From: Formivibrio sp. | GTDB lineage: Bacteria; Pseudomonadota; Gammaproteobacteria; Burkholderiales; Chitinibacteraceae | Reading direction: 5' to 3' | NCBI GenBank assembly: GCA_031291275.1 | Contig: JARLJJ010000107.1 | Span: forward strand, 1 to 64,000 | DNA: 64,000 bases | Shown: positions 24,187 through 33,420 of the stretch, one piece after another | Numbering within the stretch: the stretch's first letter is position 1 | Layout: the number at the start of each line of letters is the position of its first letter | Notes under the pieces: generated by a model | What the model was told of the DNA's origin: nothing | What the model saw: the letters and a program-made list of their open reading frames with translations, nothing else | Databases searched by the model: none | Made by a program: the position numbers and the translations under genes

Positions 24187-24828
24187 TTATGCGGACGCGA
24201 TTTCTGCAATTTGTCGCCTTTCGAACCCATAATGAATGCCTGCTGCTACCAACAGCCCGGAGAACGCATCAAGCAAGTGATGCTGGTGTACCAGCACGGT
24301 GGAGGCCATGATCAGCAGCAGCCAGGCGATCCAGAGCATTTTCCAGCGCAGGCGGGACATAACGCTGACATAGGTGAACACTGTCAGCGCGCTGTAGACC
24401 ACATGCAGCGAGGGTACGAGATTGTGCGGCTGATCGGCGAAGAACAGCCCGGAAAACAGTGTCCGGTACAGAGGATCGGCCGGGATAGTGCGCTGGAATC
24501 CCAGATGGGTGGGAATAACAAGAAACACTACGCTGGCCAGCAAAGTACCCACCAACATGCGTTTGCCCAAGGCTTTCAGCTGCGCTTCGTCCAGGAAAAA
24601 CGGTGGCCAGATAAACAGCAGGTTGACTGAAAAATAAGCCCAAACCAACTGCGGCACAAAGGGTATGTCGAGTTCGGCAGGCAGATACAGGCCAACCGTA
24701 TCACTACGCCAGGAGGTAATCCAGTTGCATAGCGGATAGGTCAGAACAAAGGCCAGATTATTCAGGCAAAACCACAGGGCATAGGTCTTCCACAGGGTTT
24801 TGCGTACGACTGCGGGGGTTTGATTCAT
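24187..24828 (-). CDS. PAP2-superfamily membrane phosphatase (last gene of the biosynthetic operon)
   Basis: This 213-residue integral membrane protein has five or six hydrophobic segments and the PAP2-type conserved parts NLVPSLHVVYSAL and VHQHHLLDAFSG, which carry the histidines and aspartate of the lipid-phosphatase/phosphotransferase site. The first PAP2 motif (KxxxxxxRP) is not obvious, as in the Aur1/Ipt1-like branch. It could remove a phosphate or transfer a head group from or to a lipid-like product. Its start overlaps the stop of the condensation-FkbH-ACP gene (ATGA), so it is translationally coupled to that operon. Confidence 0.78.
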   Translation of the reverse strand: MNQTPAVVRKTLWKTYALWFCLNNLAFVLTYPLCNWITSWRSDTVGLYLPAELDIPFVPQLVWAYFSVNLLFIWPPFFLDEAQLKALGKRMLVGTLLASVVFLVIPTHLGFQRTIPADPLYRTLFSGLFFADQPHNLVPSLHVVYSALTVFTYVSVMSRLRWKMLWIAWLLLIMASTVLVHQHHLLDAFSGLLVAAGIHYGFERRQIAEIASA

Positions 24829-27800
24829 GCGTGGCCTCCTGTCGTACCGACGGGTTGATCCAGTCTGGTGAAGTGGCTCGATTCGGCACGCTGTCTGTGC
24901 AGGTGTCGTACTAGGCTGCGCAAGGTTGGCTCCCTAGCAAATTCGTCCAGATCGGCAAACAGTTGCCCGGAGGGCAGATCAGGGACGAAACGTTGCGCGG
25001 CGGCAGACAGCAGCAACACCATTTGCAGCGAGCTTAAGCCCAGATCGGACAAGGATTGATCCAGCGGCACCGTATCCACGGCATGCTCCAGCAGGTCGAT
25101 CACCATCTTGGCCAGCACAGCTTCCATGCTGTCTGGCAAGGCATTTTTCGGGGATGGGGTTACCGTGCCACTGGCCTGCATAATCTGCGGCACATCCGTC
25201 CATGCTTCGGCAATCTGCTGGATCAAGGCGCTGCGATAGAGGCGCTGTGGATCGCTCGCCACTGGCGCTGATTCAGGCGCAACACTGGAAGAGCAGACAA
25301 CTGGCGCTGCCGGTTGCAGTTGCACGGCGCGTTCCACTGTCAGGGTAAAGCGTTGCAAGCCTGCGGGATCGGTTTGCTTGGCGGTCAGCGGGTCGGTTTG
25401 CTCGGTAGCCACCGTGGTCAGAAAATCCAGCATCGGCTGGTTTTTTGCCGTTTTCCGGAAAGGCAGCACGATCTGCCGGCAACCTGTGTCGCGGGCGATT
25501 TCCCCCAGCACAGCCATTACCCGGTGTTCCACCCCGCGCCCCAGCACCCGGCAACTCAGCAGAAAAGTATCCACCCGGAGCACCTCGGCCTGTAGCCGGT
25601 ACATCAGCACCCCGGTCAGACCGTAAGCCCCGAAACGGTCATCGACTTCAACCGTCAGGCAATGCTGGGTCTGGGCCAGCGCCTGAATCTGCGCAGCTTG
25701 GCACGGCTGTGGCCGCAGATTGAACTGGTTGGTACGCCGGGTCAGTTCGGCCACCCGCTCCAGCGCGGCAGGCAACATCGGGGCAATCGCAACCTGTAGC
25801 TGCAATGAAGCCAGAAAAGCGGCAAAGTCGCCCACTTGGCTGCGCAGCGTTTCGCGCTGCTGGTTTTGCCGGTACTGCGCGCTGCGCTGTTGCGCCGCTT
25901 CCGTGGTTACCGGGCGATCAAACGCCCATACATGCTGCAAAAACAGTGGAATGTGCGCGATTTCTGCAGGAAGCTGCAACACCAGCACTTGTGGGCAATG
26001 CGCTTGAACCTCGGCACATTCCACCGGGTTGTCATCAATAAAAATAAAGCTGTCCAAGCTTAACTGCAGCTCGCGCGCCAGCGATTGCAGATTAGCAGAT
26101 TTGGCCTGCCAATTGATCCGCGATGCAATGAAATGCGCCGGGTTCAGGAGCATCCCAGAATGATGTTCAAAGACGGCCTCGACATCTTCCGGGCTGTTTT
26201 TGCTGCACAGGCACAACAGCATACCGGCGGCATGCTGCGCCAGCATGAATTCCTGCAAGGCCTGGAATGGTGGCGTCAAGGCAACGCCAGTCGGGCCGGC
26301 TTCTGCGCATACGCCCTGCCACAGGGTGTTATCGCAATCGAGCACGATCACCTTGCTCGGCGGGGAGCGCAAAGCGATGGCCTGGCGCGCCAGCAAGGTC
26401 GCCAGCGCGGCATACATCGCTTGCGTATAGGGAACATGCCCCAACTGGTCGGCATAAGCATCTTCGGCCTGCACCACCGGATACAGCGTGGGCAAGGCAT
26501 CGGGCGCTATCAGGCAGATCCCCAGCATCGAGCCCAGCCCGGCCAGTAACGCTTGCAGGGTGGCTTCCAGCGCGGCTTGGCTGGCTGGCGACCGTTGCAT
26601 TGAACTGGCAGCCGGGGCGATCCATACCAGCAGAGGCACTGCGCTTTGCTTGCTGGCGCTGCTCAACGCCGCCAGAAAATCGTCGGCAAGGCGCGGCAAT
26701 AGCTCGACGTGATCTGCGTTTGGGGCATCGCGCAGCCAGTCTTCCACCCGCAGCAACAACACGTTAACCCCTTGCGTGTTGCGCCAGAACAGGCTGTCAG
26801 GCGCAACCAGGGTTTGGAACACCTGGTTGTAGGGGGCAAATTCAATCGCCGTGGGCAGATTGAATTGCTGCATCCAGAAAGCCAGCACCCGCGCCAAAGG
26901 TTCGGCCACAAAGCTGGAGGCGATCATGATCTGCTGATGCGGGGCAGTGGGAAGGGATCGCGGTGGAGCGAGCGATACCGTTAAGGGGGGCTGCGCTGCC
27001 AGCCCGGCACACAATCGGTCGAGCAACGCGCCCAAGCGCCCTTCCCCACCGGTAGCCATCGGGCAGGATGCCGCTATTTCCAGCCCGTGATCGTGTTGAA
27101 TGGTCAGCAGTGACAAAGCCGATCCGGGCACATTGAAAGGCAGCAAGGCCACAGCAGCCGGCGTGCAATCCTGGGTACGAAACTCATCCAGACTAACCGG
27201 CCCGACATTCGAGCTCATGCCAGCAAACAGATAGCGATTCTGGCGTACCTGCCAGGCATGCAACCAGGCAGTCAGCCGGCCCAGCAAACGTTGTGGCACA
27301 TACGGCAGGCAGGCATCGCTTCGTGCAATGGCACGTTCATCGTGCCGCCCGAGCGCGGCCAGAATATCGCGGTAGCTATCGCGCCAAGTTGTGCCGAGCG
27401 GGAATTCTAGCCACAGAGGATTGCTGAAATTGGCGGTGGAGCGCAAAGATGGATCAGGCTGGCGCAGGTCTACCGGCACCATGATCCGGCACACGGAAGA
27501 CGAAACAGTAGCCGGGATCATGCCGGCGAGCGCCGTGCAGATTCTGGCCCCCGCCGATGTTACGCTGCCGAGAACAAACCGGGTTTCCCAGACAAAGCCA
27601 TCTACCTTCGGGGTGGCTGACCCTAAGGGCGAGGATTGATCCAGGCGCAGCGAGGCTCTGCGGCGCGGGTGCTGCAAACCGCTCAGATACGGGTAATCGG
27701 AAACCGCGCTGGCTGTACCCAATACCGGCTCGCCACGCAAGGCACGCAGGGTTTCCTGGGCAAAAAACAGCAAGCCACCGGCATCCATCAAGGCATGTGC

Positions 27801-28169
27801 GCAGCGGAAAATCAGCCCGCAGCCAGGCCAGTACAGCACTTCCAGCGGCGGCACCGCATGGCATGGCAGACTGGCATGCAAAGCAGGATACACCAGCGAA
27901 AACACCTCAGTTCCCGGCAGCGTGCGCACACCAGGCGCTTGCCCGCTATCGAGCCACCAACCGTCCTGCGCGATCAGCCGCGCACCTGGATTGGCTGCGG
28001 CTGCCGTGTCCAGTGCGCTTTCCAGTAGGGCCAACGGCGGCAAAACCGACAAGGCGATTCGCAGTTGAATCACAAACGGCGGGAAATGCGGCGCTGCTGA
28101 TAGATACAGCCATTCATACGGCGTGATTTTTCGATAGCGGCGGGTTGCGCCGGGTATACGCGGCTTCAT
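24825..28169 (-). CDS. Condensation-like acyltransferase / FkbH glyceryl-ACP synthase / ACP fusion protein
   Basis: The 1114 residues show three parts. Residues 1-400 look like the condensation/wax-ester acyltransferase superfamily: HALMDAGG (His125, Asp129) stands for HHxxxDG, and FSNPLWLEFPLG and SSNVGPV fit later motifs. Residues 415-945 are an FkbH-type HAD-IIIC domain with an SGNH-like front part (SLFWRNTQGVNVLLLRVEDW), motif I LDCDNTLWQGV (Asp611, Asp613), CSKNSPEDV, FIDDNPVECAE, and the LTRRTNQFNLR to LSCRVLGRGVE tail. Known FkbH enzymes load a glyceryl unit from 1,3-bisphosphoglycerate onto an ACP. Residues 1010-1090 are that ACP, with Ser1047 in LGLSSLQM. The start and stop both overlap their neighbours (ATGA). 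The product is unknown. Confidence 0.85.
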   Translation of the reverse strand: MKPRIPGATRRYRKITPYEWLYLSAAPHFPPFVIQLRIALSVLPPLALLESALDTAAAANPGARLIAQDGWWLDSGQAPGVRTLPGTEVFSLVYPALHASLPCHAVPPLEVLYWPGCGLIFRCAHALMDAGGLLFFAQETLRALRGEPVLGTASAVSDYPYLSGLQHPRRRASLRLDQSSPLGSATPKVDGFVWETRFVLGSVTSAGARICTALAGMIPATVSSSVCRIMVPVDLRQPDPSLRSTANFSNPLWLEFPLGTTWRDSYRDILAALGRHDERAIARSDACLPYVPQRLLGRLTAWLHAWQVRQNRYLFAGMSSNVGPVSLDEFRTQDCTPAAVALLPFNVPGSALSLLTIQHDHGLEIAASCPMATGGEGRLGALLDRLCAGLAAQPPLTVSLAPPRSLPTAPHQQIMIASSFVAEPLARVLAFWMQQFNLPTAIEFAPYNQVFQTLVAPDSLFWRNTQGVNVLLLRVEDWLRDAPNADHVELLPRLADDFLAALSSASKQSAVPLLVWIAPAASSMQRSPASQAALEATLQALLAGLGSMLGICLIAPDALPTLYPVVQAEDAYADQLGHVPYTQAMYAALATLLARQAIALRSPPSKVIVLDCDNTLWQGVCAEAGPTGVALTPPFQALQEFMLAQHAAGMLLCLCSKNSPEDVEAVFEHHSGMLLNPAHFIASRINWQAKSANLQSLARELQLSLDSFIFIDDNPVECAEVQAHCPQVLVLQLPAEIAHIPLFLQHVWAFDRPVTTEAAQQRSAQYRQNQQRETLRSQVGDFAAFLASLQLQVAIAPMLPAALERVAELTRRTNQFNLRPQPCQAAQIQALAQTQHCLTVEVDDRFGAYGLTGVLMYRLQAEVLRVDTFLLSCRVLGRGVEHRVMAVLGEIARDTGCRQIVLPFRKTAKNQPMLDFLTTVATEQTDPLTAKQTDPAGLQRFTLTVERAVQLQPAAPVVCSSSVAPESAPVASDPQRLYRSALIQQIAEAWTDVPQIMQASGTVTPSPKNALPDSMEAVLAKMVIDLLEHAVDTVPLDQSLSDLGLSSLQMVLLLSAAAQRFVPDLPSGQLFADLDEFAREPTLRSLVRHLHRQRAESSHFTRLDQPVGTTGGHA

Positions 28170-29506
28170 GCTTGCAGCGCCGGCTGCGGGCAGCGGGCGA
28201 GGCAAACAATGCGGCGGCGCTTGGTTTCCCAACCCGGGCTGGCAAACGGCACCGAGCGGCATTCGGGCAGCTGCAACCCGTGCCTGCGGGCCAGCGCGCC
28301 AAGTGAGTGCTGTACCGCATCGAAGGTTGCCAGGGACTGATCGGCGACGGCTATTTCCAGCACATCGCCCTGCTGGGCAATCCGGTAATCAACGGGAATG
28401 GCATCGCGCAACAACGCATGGCGTACGATATCCGGGAACAAGGGCATCGGCGTATCGCTGCCCTGTTGGCGGAACCACAGCACATCGTCCGCCCGCCCTT
28501 CGATGCTTTCCAGTGCCTGACCATGCCGCCCACAGGTACAAGGCGCGCTACGCACCCGCAGTACATCGTTCAGCCGCTGGCGGACAATCAGCTGGGTTTT
28601 GCGGGTGAAGTCAGTGACGATGGGGGTGAAACGGGTATGCGCTTCATCCAGCCATTCCGGTTCAACGTGCACGTATTCCTCGTTCAGGTGCAGCACGCCC
28701 TGCTCGCAGGTGTAGCCCAGAAAGCCCTCGGTACACTGGTAAAGCTGGTGCACCGGCTGCTTGAATGCCTGCGCAATGCGCAGGGCATCATCCGGCTCCA
28801 GCACTTCGGCCACCGAAATAACCCGCACCGGCTTAATCTGCAAACGGCCTGCGGCAACCTGATCGGCGATCCAGGCCAGCACCCGCGCCGGGGCCACCAG
28901 TACGTCCGGGGATTGTTGCTGCAAGCTTTGCAGATGCGGCTCTACCCCGGCAAACAGATCGTAAAAACGAAAATCAATCCGGCGCGATTTAAGCGTTTGA
29001 TACAGATTACTGTTGGCGCGCAGGAAAAACGCCACGCGGATTTTCGGGCCGAAAGGCCGCAGCAGGCGGCACAACAAGCCGCCCGACAAGGTGCGCGCCA
29101 GCATGATCCCCGCCCACATCGCCCGTTCCTGGTCTGCAACCAGAAATACCCCTTGCGGCCCTTGCGTGCCACTGGAAAGCCCCACGCTATAGCGGCCAAT
29201 TCTCGGGGAAAAATCGCGGGATTGTTCCGCCGCCAGCGCCACCTGGCTGGCTTGATCCAGACTGATGCCCGCGGTATTCATGCCCTGAAAATGCTGCAGC
29301 ATGCCGGCTTTGTCCATCACCGGCAGCGCCGACAGCGGCTGGCCTGCAAACGGACGGTAAAAAGCCGCCTTGGGCAAGGTTTGCGCCAAAAAACGTTCAA
29401 TCTGCTTGGCCTGCCAGTCCAGCAAGGCCTGGCGCGATGAAAAACGCAGCGCCAAGCGGGTACGCAACAAATACCGGGCCACCGTCAACACATCAAATAG
29501 ATTCAT
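28166..29506 (-). CDS. PaaK/F390-synthetase-like adenylate-forming enzyme
   Basis: This 446-residue protein resembles coenzyme F390 synthetase and phenylacetate-CoA ligase. It has the nucleotide loop GLSSGTQGPQGVF (about 109-121), a YQCTEGFLGYTC stretch that fits the adenylate-binding region, and VTDFTRKTQLIVRQRLNDVLR as the hinge. Such enzymes activate a carboxylate as its adenylate and pass it to CoA or an ACP. In this operon it could prime the acyl chain or activate a hydroxy acid; that is inference. Its 3' end overlaps the condensation-FkbH-ACP gene by four bases, and its start overlaps the end of the hydrolase gene by 14. Confidence 0.82.
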   Translation of the reverse strand: MNLFDVLTVARYLLRTRLALRFSSRQALLDWQAKQIERFLAQTLPKAAFYRPFAGQPLSALPVMDKAGMLQHFQGMNTAGISLDQASQVALAAEQSRDFSPRIGRYSVGLSSGTQGPQGVFLVADQERAMWAGIMLARTLSGGLLCRLLRPFGPKIRVAFFLRANSNLYQTLKSRRIDFRFYDLFAGVEPHLQSLQQQSPDVLVAPARVLAWIADQVAAGRLQIKPVRVISVAEVLEPDDALRIAQAFKQPVHQLYQCTEGFLGYTCEQGVLHLNEEYVHVEPEWLDEAHTRFTPIVTDFTRKTQLIVRQRLNDVLRVRSAPCTCGRHGQALESIEGRADDVLWFRQQGSDTPMPLFPDIVRHALLRDAIPVDYRIAQQGDVLEIAVADQSLATFDAVQHSLGALARRHGLQLPECRSVPFASPGWETKRRRIVCLARCPQPALQA

Positions 29507-30341
29507 TCAGCCAGGCTCTCGCAGTCACTTCACAATGGGATGGCACTACCAGCACTGCCGGATTCTGCTCGGCCAGTTGCTGCAATTGCCCGAAGGTGGC
29601 AAGGTAGGCGCGCTTGTCGTCAAACAGGCGCTGGGCCAGCCAGCTTGGCGGGCGGTGTTGCTGCAAAGCCTTGATCGACCAGCAGGCATCGGCCACCAGA
29701 AACACGATCTGCCCATCTTGCCGGCGCAGCAGCAAGCCCAGGTGATGATGGGTATGCCCCGGCAACGGAACCGCCAGCAGGCTGCCATCGCCCAGCAGAT
29801 CAAAGCCATAACGGAAAGGTTGCAGTTCCGGCGGCAAGGTTAGCAAGCGCATGCCTTCAATAAAGCGCGCATGGGTGGAAAAACTGGCCGGCAATAACTG
29901 CGGCAAATACGCATGAAACAGCCCCTGAATGCGCGAAAGCTGGCTGAGCTGCGCATATTCGGCCTGCATGGCGATGATTTCCGCTTTGGGATAATCGCGC
30001 AAGCCGGCAATATGATCGGCATGGAAATGCGACAGGATAATCCCGTCGATATCGCCGGGCCGCAGGCCAAGCTGGGCCAGTTGCGCGGTGAGCTGTTGTT
30101 CCGACGGCAAGCTGACCGGGGTGACCCAGCGATACAGTCTTTCCGGGAAGGGCTGGGTAGCGGCCTGAAAATGGTCGCTGTAGCCGGTATCGAATAGCCA
30201 GTTACCTAGGGTGGGATGCTGGATCAAGCCACACAAGGCCGGAAAGGTCACTGCTCCCCACTGCCCGCCGCGCATGGCCACGCATTCGGGATGGCGGCAA
30301 GCGCCAACCTGCAATAAACGAAACGGCAACGGGGCTAGCAT
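29493..30341 (-). CDS. Metallo-beta-lactamase-fold hydrolase
   Basis: This 282-residue protein has the dinuclear metal motif HFHADH (His105, His107, Asp109, His110), later PGHTHHHL and VADACWS, and a final VPSHCE. These resemble the lactonase and thioesterase branches of the fold; AHL lactonases have the same motif and similar length. No signal peptide is evident. In its operon it might release the product from the carrier protein, open or close a lactone, or protect the cell from its own product. It overlaps both neighbours by a few bases, so it is translated with them. Confidence 0.85.
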   Translation of the reverse strand: MLAPLPFRLLQVGACRHPECVAMRGGQWGAVTFPALCGLIQHPTLGNWLFDTGYSDHFQAATQPFPERLYRWVTPVSLPSEQQLTAQLAQLGLRPGDIDGIILSHFHADHIAGLRDYPKAEIIAMQAEYAQLSQLSRIQGLFHAYLPQLLPASFSTHARFIEGMRLLTLPPELQPFRYGFDLLGDGSLLAVPLPGHTHHHLGLLLRRQDGQIVFLVADACWSIKALQQHRPPSWLAQRLFDDKRAYLATFGQLQQLAEQNPAVLVVPSHCEVTARAWLNESI

Positions 30342-31339
30342 GATGCCAATTCTTGATGGTTGGCAAACCAGTCAGCGGTTCGCATGATGCCCTCGGCCAC
30401 GCTCACGCCGGGGGTATAGCCCAGATGCTGCTGCGCTTGCGACAAATCCAGGGTTTGTGAAAACGCAATCGCCCCCACGGTATAGCGAGTCAGCGGCGGC
30501 TCCCACCCTGGCGCAAGGCGGGCTGCGATTTCCAGCAGGTGCGCGAGGGATACCCCCACCCGGAATGGCACCCGGACAGGCCGGTAAGGCAAGGCAAACG
30601 CCGTGGCCAGTTGTTCAAACAAACGACCGGCAGCCAGCGGCTGCCCGTTGCTGATATTGAAGGTACGCACCTCGGGCTGGCGCATCGCCAGCGCCAGACA
30701 GATCGCATCGACCACGTTATCGACATAGGTCAGATCCAGCAGCGCCCGCCCCTGATTGAACAAGGGAATCCGCCCGTTTTGCATCACCCGCAGCAAACGC
30801 GGCAGCAAGGTCTGATCCCACGGGCCAAAGATGCCGCGCGGACGCAAGATAATGGCATCGACCGGCGAATCGGCTACCCGTTGTTCTGCCACCAGCTTGG
30901 TTCTGGCGTATTCGTTCACTGGTGGCGGCAACGGCGCATCTTCGCAGATCGCCAGCCGGTCGCGGAATTCAAAATACAAACTCGGGGTGGACACATGCAC
31001 CAGCCGTGGCGTTTGCTGCGCCGTGCATACGGCCAGCACTTCCTCGGTGGAAACCACATTGGCCCGATAAAATGCCTGCTTATCCCCCCAAGGTGCAGAA
31101 AGTGCGGCGCAATGCACCAAGGCATCGGCCTGCCCGGCAGCCCGGTTCAGCACCGCCGCCGCATCCGCTACCCCATGCTCCAGCGAGACAAAGCTGACAT
31201 CCCCATTGGACAGCGCCAAGACTTGCCGGGCGGCTGCAGCATTGCGGCCAGTGAAACACACCGTATGCCCAAGCACAGCCAAGCGCCACACCACATGCCG
31301 CCCCAAAAAACCTGTCCCGCCGGTGATCAGTATTTTCAT
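30335..31339 (-). CDS. NAD(P)-dependent epimerase/reductase, OleD-like
   Basis: This 334-residue extended short-chain dehydrogenase has the Rossmann loop GGTGFLG (7-13), Ser117-Thr118 and the catalytic Tyr144-x3-Lys148 (YARTK). LRPRGIFGPWD and NISNGQPL are typical of the 3-beta-HSD/OleD branch, which reduces 2-alkyl-3-oxoacids or related beta-keto groups. In this operon it would most simply reduce the beta-keto product of the ketoacyl synthase encoded directly upstream; the gap to that gene is one base. The acceptor is not shown by the sequence. Confidence 0.85.
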   Translation of the reverse strand: MKILITGGTGFLGRHVVWRLAVLGHTVCFTGRNAAAARQVLALSNGDVSFVSLEHGVADAAAVLNRAAGQADALVHCAALSAPWGDKQAFYRANVVSTEEVLAVCTAQQTPRLVHVSTPSLYFEFRDRLAICEDAPLPPPVNEYARTKLVAEQRVADSPVDAIILRPRGIFGPWDQTLLPRLLRVMQNGRIPLFNQGRALLDLTYVDNVVDAICLALAMRQPEVRTFNISNGQPLAAGRLFEQLATAFALPYRPVRVPFRVGVSLAHLLEIAARLAPGWEPPLTRYTVGAIAFSQTLDLSQAQQHLGYTPGVSVAEGIMRTADWFANHQELASC

Positions 31340-31340
31340 A

Positions 31341-32336
31341 TCAGTATGTCAGCACCATGCCACCAATGGTCACCCCAGCCCCGGTGCCGATCAGCAAGGC
31401 ATCGTCGCCGCGCTGCAACTGCCCGCTGCTGATCGCATGATGCAGCGCCGTCGGCAAGGATGCCCCGACCTGATTGCCGAAGCGGGCAAAAATATCCACC
31501 AACTTGCTGGCCGGAATCTCCAGCCGCTTAGCCATATGGCTGAGCGCCAGCCGGCTGGCCTGATGCGGAATCACCGTGGAAATATGTGCCAGCGTGACCC
31601 CGGCCTGTTGCAGCAGATCGGCAGTAAACGTCGGCAATTCGCCGGATACCAGCTTGAATACTGCTTTGCCATCCATTGAAAACTTGGCCAGCGGTGCAAA
31701 CGGGGTATTGATCCGCTCGGGGTGAAAGCGGGTACCACCACCGGGGATTTCGCAATACCGCACGCCCTTGGATAGCGTATGTGAACGCGACGCCTTGATC
31801 AGCGATACTTCACCCGGCAAGGATTTGCGGATCACCACCGCCGCCGCGCCATCGCCAAAATTGCCGCACTCGCGCAACTCCTTCCAGTTTAGGCCGAAGG
31901 TGGCAATATCTGCCGACACCAGCATCACATTCTGGTAGCGGCCGTTTTCCACCAAATGGCTCATCACATCCAGCCCGGTCAGGAAAGACATGCAACTGGC
32001 CCCCACATCGAACGTGGTAGTACGTTGCCGGTTCAACCCCAACTCCGCATGAATCAACGCTGCATTATAGGGAAGCGCCTGATCCATCGTCGCCCCGGTG
32101 GAAACCAGACAATCGATATTTTCCCAGTCCAAGCCGCTGCTAGCCAGCGCCTTTCGGCAAGCATCCGCCGCCAGTGACGCCGCGGTTTCATGGATAGACA
32201 CATGTCGTTGTTGCACACCAGAAATACCGGAAATCGTTCCGACCTTCAGCCCGAGGCGAGCATCCATTTCATCGCTGGTCATGATTGTATCCGGCTGCGA
32301 CATGCCGGAACCAATGATACGAATACGGGGTTGCAT
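31341..32336 (-). CDS. Ketoacyl-ACP synthase III-type condensing enzyme
   Basis: This 331-residue thiolase-fold protein has the complete FabH-type triad: Cys115 (GASCMSF), His258 (IPHQASR) and Asn288 (FGNQVGAS). It is distinct from the housekeeping FabH at 45.9-46.9 kb, which has a different active-site context and lies in the fab operon. Paralogous KAS III enzymes in biosynthetic clusters condense two acyl chains (OleA type) or an acyl chain with glyceryl-ACP (tetronate type). The FkbH-ACP gene in the same operon makes the second option attractive, but only as inference. The ATG is directly adjacent to the ArsR stop. Confidence 0.88.
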   Translation of the reverse strand: MQPRIRIIGSGMSQPDTIMTSDEMDARLGLKVGTISGISGVQQRHVSIHETAASLAADACRKALASSGLDWENIDCLVSTGATMDQALPYNAALIHAELGLNRQRTTTFDVGASCMSFLTGLDVMSHLVENGRYQNVMLVSADIATFGLNWKELRECGNFGDGAAAVVIRKSLPGEVSLIKASRSHTLSKGVRYCEIPGGGTRFHPERINTPFAPLAKFSMDGKAVFKLVSGELPTFTADLLQQAGVTLAHISTVIPHQASRLALSHMAKRLEIPASKLVDIFARFGNQVGASLPTALHHAISSGQLQRGDDALLIGTGAGVTIGGMVLTY

Positions 32337-32648
32337 TCAGCTTTCCTCTTCAATGTATTTACGCGTGCGCTCCAGCATCTCGAGCAGGATGTGCTTGTTC
32401 AGTGACAAGAACACCTCACGCCCCTGCTTTCTGGACAGCAGCAAACCAGCATCCAGAAGCACGTTGATATGATGGGTCACCGACGTACGCCCTAGCGGCA
32501 ACACATCGACGATTTGCTTGATCGTCAACTCCTCGTTCGGCTCGAAAAGCAGCAGGATTTTCTGACGCCAGTCATCCCCCAAGGCCTTGTAGACCTCGGA
32601 AACGTTCAGCCAGTGTGCCGGCAAGGCATGGATGTATTCGGTTTTCAT
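32337..32648 (-). CDS. ArsR-family transcription regulator of the biosynthetic operon
   Basis: This 103-residue protein has a winged helix-turn-helix at about 30-85 (LTIKQIVDVLPLGRTSVTHHINVLLDAGLL). No Cys pair of the arsenic/metal-sensing kind is seen in the recognition helix, so it probably senses something other than a metal or responds to no ligand. It is the first gene of the seven-gene operon and its stop abuts the ketoacyl synthase start. An 8-bp direct repeat overlaps its promoter, so self-regulation is likely. The start at 32648 has only a poor Shine-Dalgarno. Confidence 0.85.
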   Translation of the reverse strand: MKTEYIHALPAHWLNVSEVYKALGDDWRQKILLLFEPNEELTIKQIVDVLPLGRTSVTHHINVLLDAGLLLSRKQGREVFLSLNKHILLEMLERTRKYIEEES

Positions 32649-32683
32649 GTCTATATATTTAGTTATTTAGTTATTTTTGTCAA
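32649..32683 (-). promoter_or_regulatory. Promoter of the biosynthetic operon with an 8-bp direct repeat
   Basis: On the minus strand a perfect TTGACA box lies at 32683-32678. TAACTAAA occurs twice in tandem at 32673-32658, just downstream, within the spacer and -10 region. The -10 box is ambiguous in the AT-rich stretch up to the start codon. A repressor on the repeat would block the promoter, which is a plausible operator for the ArsR protein. Confidence 0.55.
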
Positions 32684-32774: not shown

Positions 32775-33317
32775 TCATTTCCAGTTATATCGCGCTCGAC
32801 ACAACGCCAGATCTGCCGCGGAGGGCGTATCCACCCCTCGCCGTACAAACTCTTTCTCGTTCATCAGGCTGTCCAAGTCCGTGGAATGATCAAACAGACC
32901 CAGCGCATGCCCCACCTCATGCGCAACGACTCGACGCAATGTTGCAGGATCGTGGATCAATGCACGATTGAGACGGATATCGGCATCAAGCAATATTCGG
33001 CGCAGATATTGCGGCAAGGTCAACGCCAGCAAGCCAGGAATCTCTTTCTGCCACCCCATGACATTAACGCCATCCAGCTGGTCAAAGGGCTTATGACTGA
33101 ACCCGCCAAATACCACCGCCACTCCGCACGGAGCCCAAACTTGCGCAGCGTGCGCCAAGGCATCGATCACATCTGTATCACTAATACTTTCCGGTTGGCC
33201 TTCCGGGTTGTACGCCAAGACATAGCGTTTGTTTTGCCAGACGGCAAACTCTTCGGCGCCGGAAGCGACAACGGGTAACAAAGCAGTCAGCGCAAGGAGG
33301 AATACGATGGGTTTCAT
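32775..33317 (-). CDS. Secreted matrixin-like zinc metalloprotease
   Basis: This 180-residue protein has a signal peptide (residues 1-20, AxA-like VASGA) and HEVGHALGLFDHS (133-145): His133 and His137 bind zinc and Glu134 is the base. The third ligand position is Asp143, as in snapalysin-type HExxHxxGxxD enzymes, with His144 directly after it; usual matrixins have His at that place. A Met-turn candidate (SLMN, Met152) follows. Substrates are unknown; it may be a cell-surface or extracellular protease. The start at 33317 follows CAAGGAGGAATACG-like spacing on the minus strand only loosely. It stands between the operon promoter and the ilvD terminator. Confidence 0.8.
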   Translation of the reverse strand: MKPIVFLLALTALLPVVASGAEEFAVWQNKRYVLAYNPEGQPESISDTDVIDALAHAAQVWAPCGVAVVFGGFSHKPFDQLDGVNVMGWQKEIPGLLALTLPQYLRRILLDADIRLNRALIHDPATLRRVVAHEVGHALGLFDHSTDLDSLMNEKEFVRRGVDTPSAADLALCRARYNWK

Positions 33318-33374
33318 AAACGGCAGTTTAACCGAACAATCCGGTCGGGCCGTCCCTCCTTTCCTCCTGACAAC

Positions 33375-33401
33375 AAAAAAGCGCCAGAATGGCGCTTTTT
33401 T
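33375..33401 (-). terminator. Intrinsic terminator of ilvD
   Basis: A 12-bp stem (33375-33386 with 33390-33401) and a three-base loop, with A and T runs on the two sides, lies directly after the ilvD stop on the minus strand. The symmetric runs allow it to work in both directions. Confidence 0.9.
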
Positions 33402-33420
33402 GCCGGTCGGCAACAGCAGA

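Follow-up and report, generated by a model that had tools for sequence, protein, structure and literature searches.

In a 64,000-nucleotide stretch of DNA from Formivibrio sp. (contig JARLJJ010000107.1; hereafter the window), seven minus-strand open reading frames (ORFs) at 24187-32648 were tentatively read, at somewhat less than an even chance, as an operon of lipstatin logic, the product of which would be a two-chain lipid with a glyceryl unit in place of the amino acid. Neighbouring ORFs overlap by 4-14 bp or sit 0-1 bp apart, a layout that bears out the single operon of overlapping or abutting genes described in an earlier note on this DNA. In reading order the genes encode an ArsR regulator, a ketoacyl synthase III (KAS III), a short-chain dehydrogenase/reductase (SDR), a metallo-beta-lactamase (MBL)-fold hydrolase, an adenylating enzyme, a fusion of an N-terminal domain (N-domain), FkbH and acyl carrier protein (ACP), and a PAP2 protein. 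Chance does not explain this arrangement: its four-gene core is found again in 23 of the 25 loci inspected, and a congener is without the insert. Lipstatin is the source of the drug orlistat, and in its biosynthesis an LstE-type synthetase presumably transfers the amino acid to a hydroxyl of the lipid, alongside the formyltransferase LstF. A lipid-like product, suggested in the earlier note, was judged plausible.

The proposed route would have six steps (all features on the minus strand). The KAS III (31341..32336; PF08541; C115/H258/N288), from the chain-joining MxnB/CorB group, would fuse two acyl chains in a Claisen reaction. The OleD-like SDR (30335..31339; YxxxK), predicted to act on a 2-alkyl-3-oxo acid or its thioester, would reduce the 3-oxo group to a 3-hydroxyl. 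The MBL-fold hydrolase (29493..30341; PF00753; HxHxDH), lactonase-like and predicted to be a thioesterase or lactonase, may release the acid from its thioester or act on a lactone. The F390 synthetase-related (PaaK-like) adenylate-forming enzyme (28166..29506; TIGR02304; SSGT and KRRRI) may then adenylate the acid and yield an acyl-CoA or a closed lactone, a role like that of OleC or LstC. Within the fusion protein (24825..28169), the FkbH part, which matches its family model, would load a glyceryl unit from 1,3-bisphosphoglycerate onto the fused ACP, and the LstE-type N-domain, by homology to lipstatin-type synthetases, would pass it as an ester to the lipid hydroxyl. Such a transfer would account for the fusion having no thioesterase domain above the Pfam cut-off (single match, E 0.077). 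A PAP2_3-family membrane phosphatase or phosphotransferase (24187..24828; PF14378; PSLH ... HHLLD) may act on the product, or on one of its precursors, to remove or exchange a phosphate, the least certain step; together with it, the role of the MBL hydrolase and lactone closure by the F390-related enzyme are the weakest parts of the route. The motifs named for the KAS III, SDR, MBL hydrolase and ligase, with DCDNT in FkbH and GLSSL in the ACP, presumably have their usual catalytic roles.

The fusion gene likely starts with the ATG at 28169, which shares bases with the ligase stop codon, and not with the longer ORF from 28262. The resulting protein has 1114 residues, and FkbH occupies in it the place of the amino-acid adenylation (A) domain of one-module synthetases. 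The Cys-His-Asn triad of the KAS III is intact, as stated in the earlier note, and the FkbH is complete by its family model. Pfam and NCBIfam agreed with the gene identities proposed in that note, except for the ‘condensation’ domain of the fusion. Pfam gave nothing for that domain (residues 1 to about 392; 26994..28169) with E relaxed to 10, and Condensation (PF00668) matched neither the window nor any of the 12 aligned sequences at that threshold. It was 30-33% identical to ten one-module synthetases of Streptomyces and Rhodococcus, and H125, D129 and G132 of its HxxxDxxG motif were invariant in 12/12 sequences. By homology it corresponds to the N-domain of lipstatin-type synthetases. A search of the PDB with the N-domain profile gave no match.

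The FkbH region (25395..26930, approximate limits) comprises an N-terminal extension, a HAD-IIIC phosphatase (DCDNT) and an acyltransferase part. It scored 290 bits against TIGR01686 over residues 606-925 (cut-off 146.65) and was 47% identical to an FkbH-type protein of Aquisphaera over residues 415-934; this alignment begins at residue 415 and takes in the N-terminal extension. An extension of this kind is described in the portion of PMC12304814 that was available. The ACP domain (PF00550; GLSSL) lies at 24900..25115, again with approximate limits. At 1e-30, 17 of the 399 genomes of the order had a match to the full-length fusion protein, and among the matches listed all except the window's own begin at residue 381 or later, that is, in the FkbH part. 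FkbH with a carrier behind a condensation-type domain is not in itself new: a further genome of this order (L038) has the two after a domain that, judged by eye from HHIVADGW, is of the ordinary condensation type.

Matches to the N-domain were found in 23 plasmid records, all from Streptomyces or Rhodococcus, 19 of them annotated, as synthetase or adenylation protein. The neighbourhoods of ten, not randomly chosen, were read, and six proved lipstatin-type (L064, L071, L074-L077), with genes for a KAS III, a second hypothetical or KAS-like protein, a fatty acid CoA ligase or AMP-binding protein, an epimerase-type SDR, a synthetase and a formyltransferase. These operons served below as stand-ins for the lipstatin (lst) proteins of Streptomyces toxytricini. 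Profile searches of L064 identified a pair of KAS III-like genes, of which the second narrowly missed the Pfam cut-offs, a ligase that resembles OleC (537 bits against that model, cut-off 900), an OleD-like SDR, a synthetase of A domain and peptidyl carrier protein (PCP), and a formyltransferase. The operons on the Rhodococcus plasmids (L064:6989-17809 and L071:3995-14800) also have an MMPL transporter and lie near a chloramphenicol efflux gene. In the other four neighbourhoods (L063, L070, L072, L073) the N-domain again belongs to a synthetase with A and PCP domains, but the setting is not a lipstatin-type operon; in three of the four, TauD dioxygenases and large polyketide synthase (PKS) genes lie next to it.

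For the KAS III, the best PDB matches were 4v2p (212 bits; listed as KETOSYNTHASE, which we take to be MxnB) and CorB 4yuc (205 bits); the best FabH scored 150 bits, and entries that we take to be OleA about 84 bits. Identity was 36-38% to MxnB/CorB, 38% by BLAST both to MxnB and to the KAS III of an E. coli cassette described below, and 22-28% to LstA-like proteins. Trees split the cassette KAS IIIs and MxnB/CorB from FabH, OleA, LstA-like proteins and a Streptomyces KAS III, L085 (IQ-TREE UFBoot 96; FastTree 0.979); deep branching within the group was weakly supported (53-87). The catalytic Cys, His and Asn were conserved in 20/20 aligned cassette KAS IIIs, that of the window included. By sequence, the window KAS III belongs to the MxnB/CorB group, members of which join two polyketide chains, according to the available part of PMC12304814.

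An ordinary FabH-like enzyme that extends a chain with malonyl-ACP would, with the SDR, lead to a 3-hydroxy acid and to a single-chain 3-hydroxyacyl glycerate as product. FabH-type NCBIfam models do give the window KAS III 190-212 bits, and an LstB-like partner subunit is missing; but MxnB/CorB are clearly closer than FabH in both the PDB matches and the trees, and the best models for the SDR are named 2-alkyl-3-oxoalkanoate reductase. We consider a single-chain product unlikely.

The best NCBIfam model for the SDR was OleD (NF042422; 197 bits). The two OleD models ranked first and second for 6/6 SDRs scanned (those of the window, the E. coli cassette, Noviherbaspirillum humi and L057 and, from lst-like operons, L064 and L075), all six below the equivalog cut-off of 580; the two lst-like SDRs scored 213 and 231 bits. 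Neither of two other extended SDRs reached the OleD models at 1e-10. For the MBL hydrolase, the best NCBIfam models were N-acylhomoserine lactone (AHL) lactonase and 4-pyridoxolactonase, both below their cut-offs; the nearest PDB chain was 4-pyridoxolactonase, and several AHL lactonases stood among the 22 matches. The ligase scored 426 bits against TIGR02304 (cut-off 251.9), and its sole PDB match was a phenylacetate-CoA ligase.

Together with the KAS III, these three genes form a cassette that recurs elsewhere. Twenty-five loci with a related ligase were collected, and the cassette was complete by BLAST in 23 (10/10 from genome contigs, 9/9 further loci and 4/6 more). Eleven of the 55 matching records in the plasmid search had their neighbourhoods read. 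Hosts are alpha-, beta- and gammaproteobacteria and Bacillota. The gene order is constant in most loci; L058 differs (SDR, MBL, ligase, KAS III). Incomplete cassettes lie on two large Pseudomonas megaplasmids: L032 (11905-13203) has the F390-related ligase alone, and L089 (738-8212) has MBL and ligase, with a 245-residue SDR about 4.6 kb upstream and no KAS III within the 15 kb examined. In Ketogulonicigenium and Paracoccus (L030:7500-9106, L090:2523-4182) a divergent TetR gene and a sulfotransferase gene precede the cassette, perhaps as another tailoring variant.

At DNA level the E. coli cassette matched 672 of 5426 complete genomes (about 12%), and in 671 of these the match covered 80% or more of it. 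It sits between narI and tRNA-Tyr/purU in two records (L029:9149-16030, L062:4001-10882), and its seven genes encode KAS III, SDR, MBL, F390-related enzyme, PAP2, a sterol desaturase family protein and an acyl-CoA desaturase. The literature searched covered subscription journals thinly and gives weak evidence of absence; it held no description of the four-gene cassette, of its E. coli version or, in line with the earlier note, of a cluster with the gene set of the window.

FkbH had a match in none of the 25 loci when the complete fusion protein was compared by BLAST with their ORFs of 70 residues or more, within the DNA examined for each locus. The fusion protein matched only in L017 (N. humi), to the N-domain and carrier parts. 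As FkbH was unmatched in all 25 ligase loci, 23 of them complete cassettes, glyceryl-ACP is evidently not required by the KAS III of the cassette. The result bears directly on tetronate chemistry, in which the KAS III would condense glyceryl-ACP with a 3-oxoacyl thioester to give a tetronate-like ring; a tetronate-style joining of the glyceryl unit to an acyl chain had been supposed in the earlier note and is now disfavoured. FkbH, ACP and a FabH-like enzyme do make up the conserved tetronate set, as given in the available part of PMC4979870. The Streptomyces locus L085, with adjacent KAS III, FkbH and ACP genes, was used as the tetronate comparator; its tetronate-like class was inferred from gene content, and its KAS III is a weak comparator (24% identity to that of the window, histidine column unaligned), which slightly raises the chances of tetronate chemistry. 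Besides the absence of FkbH matches from the 25 loci, the grouping of the KAS III with MxnB/CorB stands against it, no Agg4-like acyltransferase or Agg5-like dehydratase was found among the seven genes (Pfam, NCBIfam), and the SDR would take away the ketone required for the ring. We regard it as improbable.

What follows the core varies. A tail of PAP2 and fatty acid hydroxylase, in some loci with a desaturase, was seen in Janthinobacterium, Aquitalea, B. stagnalis and E. coli; the hydroxylase was confirmed by profile in L018 and L029 and taken from annotation or by eye in other loci, and the tails of L025 and of some Janthinobacterium loci were read in part. An ATP-grasp tail was found in five loci (L016, Paraburkholderia L028, Paenibacillus L031, Pontibacillus L091, Rhizobium L092), with GNAT in four of them and Rieske in two. 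The tail of N. humi consists of an N-domain/A/PCP synthetase, a desaturase and PAP2; its A-domain residues, read by eye, are D-L-T-K-V-G-E-V-G, which we take to lie near Asn/Asp codes. In several other cassette loci no tail was recognised.

In a tree of the concatenated core the window groups with L016 and L028 (support 1.000 and 100), both with ATP-grasp and GNAT tails, and the core of N. humi falls in another, PAP2-tailed clade (support 100). The tail of the window is nearest to that of N. humi (N-domain 46-47%, PAP2 54% identity). The window PAP2 is 26.5-34% identical to the PAP2 of four other cassettes, and that of N. humi just 23-31% identical to four PAP2s from its own core clade. Since the core of the window is nearest to L016/L028 but its tail nearest to N. 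humi, synthetase and PAP2 seem to have travelled together as a unit between cores, as judged from two loci.

A broader reading is that the four-gene cassette is a widespread chain-fusion pathway parallel to Ole and lst, with an exchangeable tail that sets the end group. The tail of the window and N. humi would be a lipstatin-type ester synthetase with A-domain or FkbH loading, making amino-acyl or glyceryl esters of a like fused lipid, possibly with a lactone warhead. As a whole this is possible, and on balance we lean against it.

The N-domain might also act in reverse: the F390-related enzyme would make an acyl-CoA, the N-domain would acylate the hydroxyl of glyceryl-S-ACP, and the MBL hydrolase would free an O-acyl glycerate. 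The catalytic domain of wax ester synthase/DGAT, an acylator of alcohols, weakly matched two of the 12 N-domain relatives (best E 3.6e-4), and the ATP-grasp/GNAT tails (L016, L028, L031, L092) suggest acyl transfer to a varying acceptor; the direction presumed for lipstatin, with the amino acid passed to the lipid hydroxyl, is the opposite one. This reversed use appears fairly unlikely.

Several observations weigh against the two-chain glyceryl ester and the assignments behind it. The KAS III of lipstatin-type operons is a heterodimer and their ligase is of the OleC type, and the window has neither; the FabH-type scores of the KAS III have been given above, and the SDR scores far under the OleD cut-off. 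Closure of a lactone by the F390-related enzyme is a guess, the enzyme being PaaK-like and not OleC-like. The similarity of the N-domain to the EntF condensation domain was not significant, and its AlphaFold model, built from two sequences, had a mean pLDDT of 33. Nor is the domain confined to the lipstatin pathway, as four of the ten neighbourhoods read were not lipstatin-type. Among 378 genomes of the phylum it was found in the window's own and weakly in two others (27-31%), so that proteobacterial support comes from N. humi. FkbH proteins also serve methoxymalonyl pathways, as stated in the available part of PMC7489565; the accompanying dehydrogenase and methyltransferase genes of that route were absent from the operon (Pfam, NCBIfam).

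The surroundings of the operon were compared with two congeners. In the first (G002, L082), purL, purB, a DUF945 gene and ilvD occur in matching order at 87-95% protein identity, and the DUF945 gene and ilvD are 189 bp apart, against 9.7 kb in the window. The 9.7-kb gap contains the operon and a matrixin-like (Peptidase_M10) gene at 32775-33413 (minus strand), which adjoins ilvD and had no match in the L082 locus. As the flanking genes are only 189 bp apart in one congener, the operon has the look of an insert and was apparently acquired horizontally. The second congener (G001, L083), with matches to lgt and ilvD alone, was uninformative on the insertion site. Contamination of the assembly was rejected, six flanking genes being 82-95% identical in a congener with their order kept. 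TIGR02304 was above its cut-off in one of 61 relatives, the window's own genome, and 19/61 had a match at E 0.001; at E 1e-40 the window ligase was found in 2/369 genomes of the class and 4/399 of the order, its own counted in both.

The ArsR/SmtB-fold regulator (32337..32648, minus strand; PF12840/PF01022), which probably represses its own operon, is 51% identical to the ArsR at the equivalent place in L028. It is an unlikely thiolate metal sensor, because the protein has no cysteine. Immediately 5' of its start codon lies an A/T-rich element (32649..32683, minus strand; TTGACA, then AACTAAATAACTAA...), a putative promoter or ArsR operator, weakly assigned, which by eye resembles the stretch 5' of ArsR in Paraburkholderia L028. 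The region described in the earlier note ended at 32683, the first base of this TTGACA. A sigma-70 promoter scan did not list the element; it gave 2 sites against 4.2 expected in shuffles, and a terminator scan 13 against 11.4. No inverted repeat was detected 5' of ArsR, and the single Rfam match on the operon (E 0.49) was taken as chance.

If correct, the reading of the cassette would tie genes of Proteobacteria and Bacillota to a definite chemistry, the fusion of two acyl chains; the E. coli carriers include isolates from urinary infection and from asymptomatic bacteriuria. The fusion protein would be a natural case of loading-domain exchange in a lipid-ester synthetase, useful for engineering lipase inhibitors of the lipstatin type.

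Among the systems compared, the TIGR02304 cassette shares four genes with the window, mostly in the same order, and the window carries a member of it; the tail of N-domain/FkbH/ACP and PAP2 sets the window apart. N. humi U15 (L017) has the shared core, an N-domain synthetase and PAP2, but an A domain where the window has FkbH, and an extra fatty acid desaturase; no ArsR match was found there at 1e-4. MxnB/CorB of myxopyronin and corallopyronin share with the window the ASC(L/M)SF motif and the KAS III sequence group; unlike theirs, the window operon is without PKS, and a reductase follows the KAS III.

OleABCD offers the same order of logic, from chain fusion through reduction by an OleD-like SDR to activation of the acid, and OleA, OleD and OleC lead to beta-lactones in the account available from PMC7064751. 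The window differs in its F390-related ligase and in a KAS III outside the OleA branch, and membership was rejected on the latter and on the absence of OleC (NF045786) from its genome at E 1e-40; no OleB-like alpha/beta hydrolase was found among the seven operon genes. With the glycerate-utilisation operon of tetronates the window shares FkbH, ACP and, perhaps, the FabH-like enzyme, but it has a ketone-reducing SDR and a KAS III that groups with MxnB/CorB.

In lst, LstA/LstB condense two acyl-CoAs, according to the part of PMC12141560 available. The window is like lst in its KAS III, its OleD-like SDR, which corresponds to LstD, its acid-activating ligase, and an N-domain of the family that opens the one-module synthetases of lst-like operons. 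It is unlike lst in lacking the LstA/LstB pair, an OleC-type LstC and the LstF formyltransferase, and in having an extra MBL hydrolase and PAP2; of an LstE-type synthetase it has the N-domain and carrier, with FkbH instead of the A domain, and so not the whole. Membership of lst was rejected, the single KAS III falling outside the LstA group and OleC, A domain and formyltransferase being absent from the operon. On gene content and homology, the operon is placed outside the lst, Ole and tetronate families and appears to mix the logic of lst and Ole with the glycerate loading of tetronates; for its fusion protein, the lipstatin-type synthetase would be a better analogy than the tetronate set.

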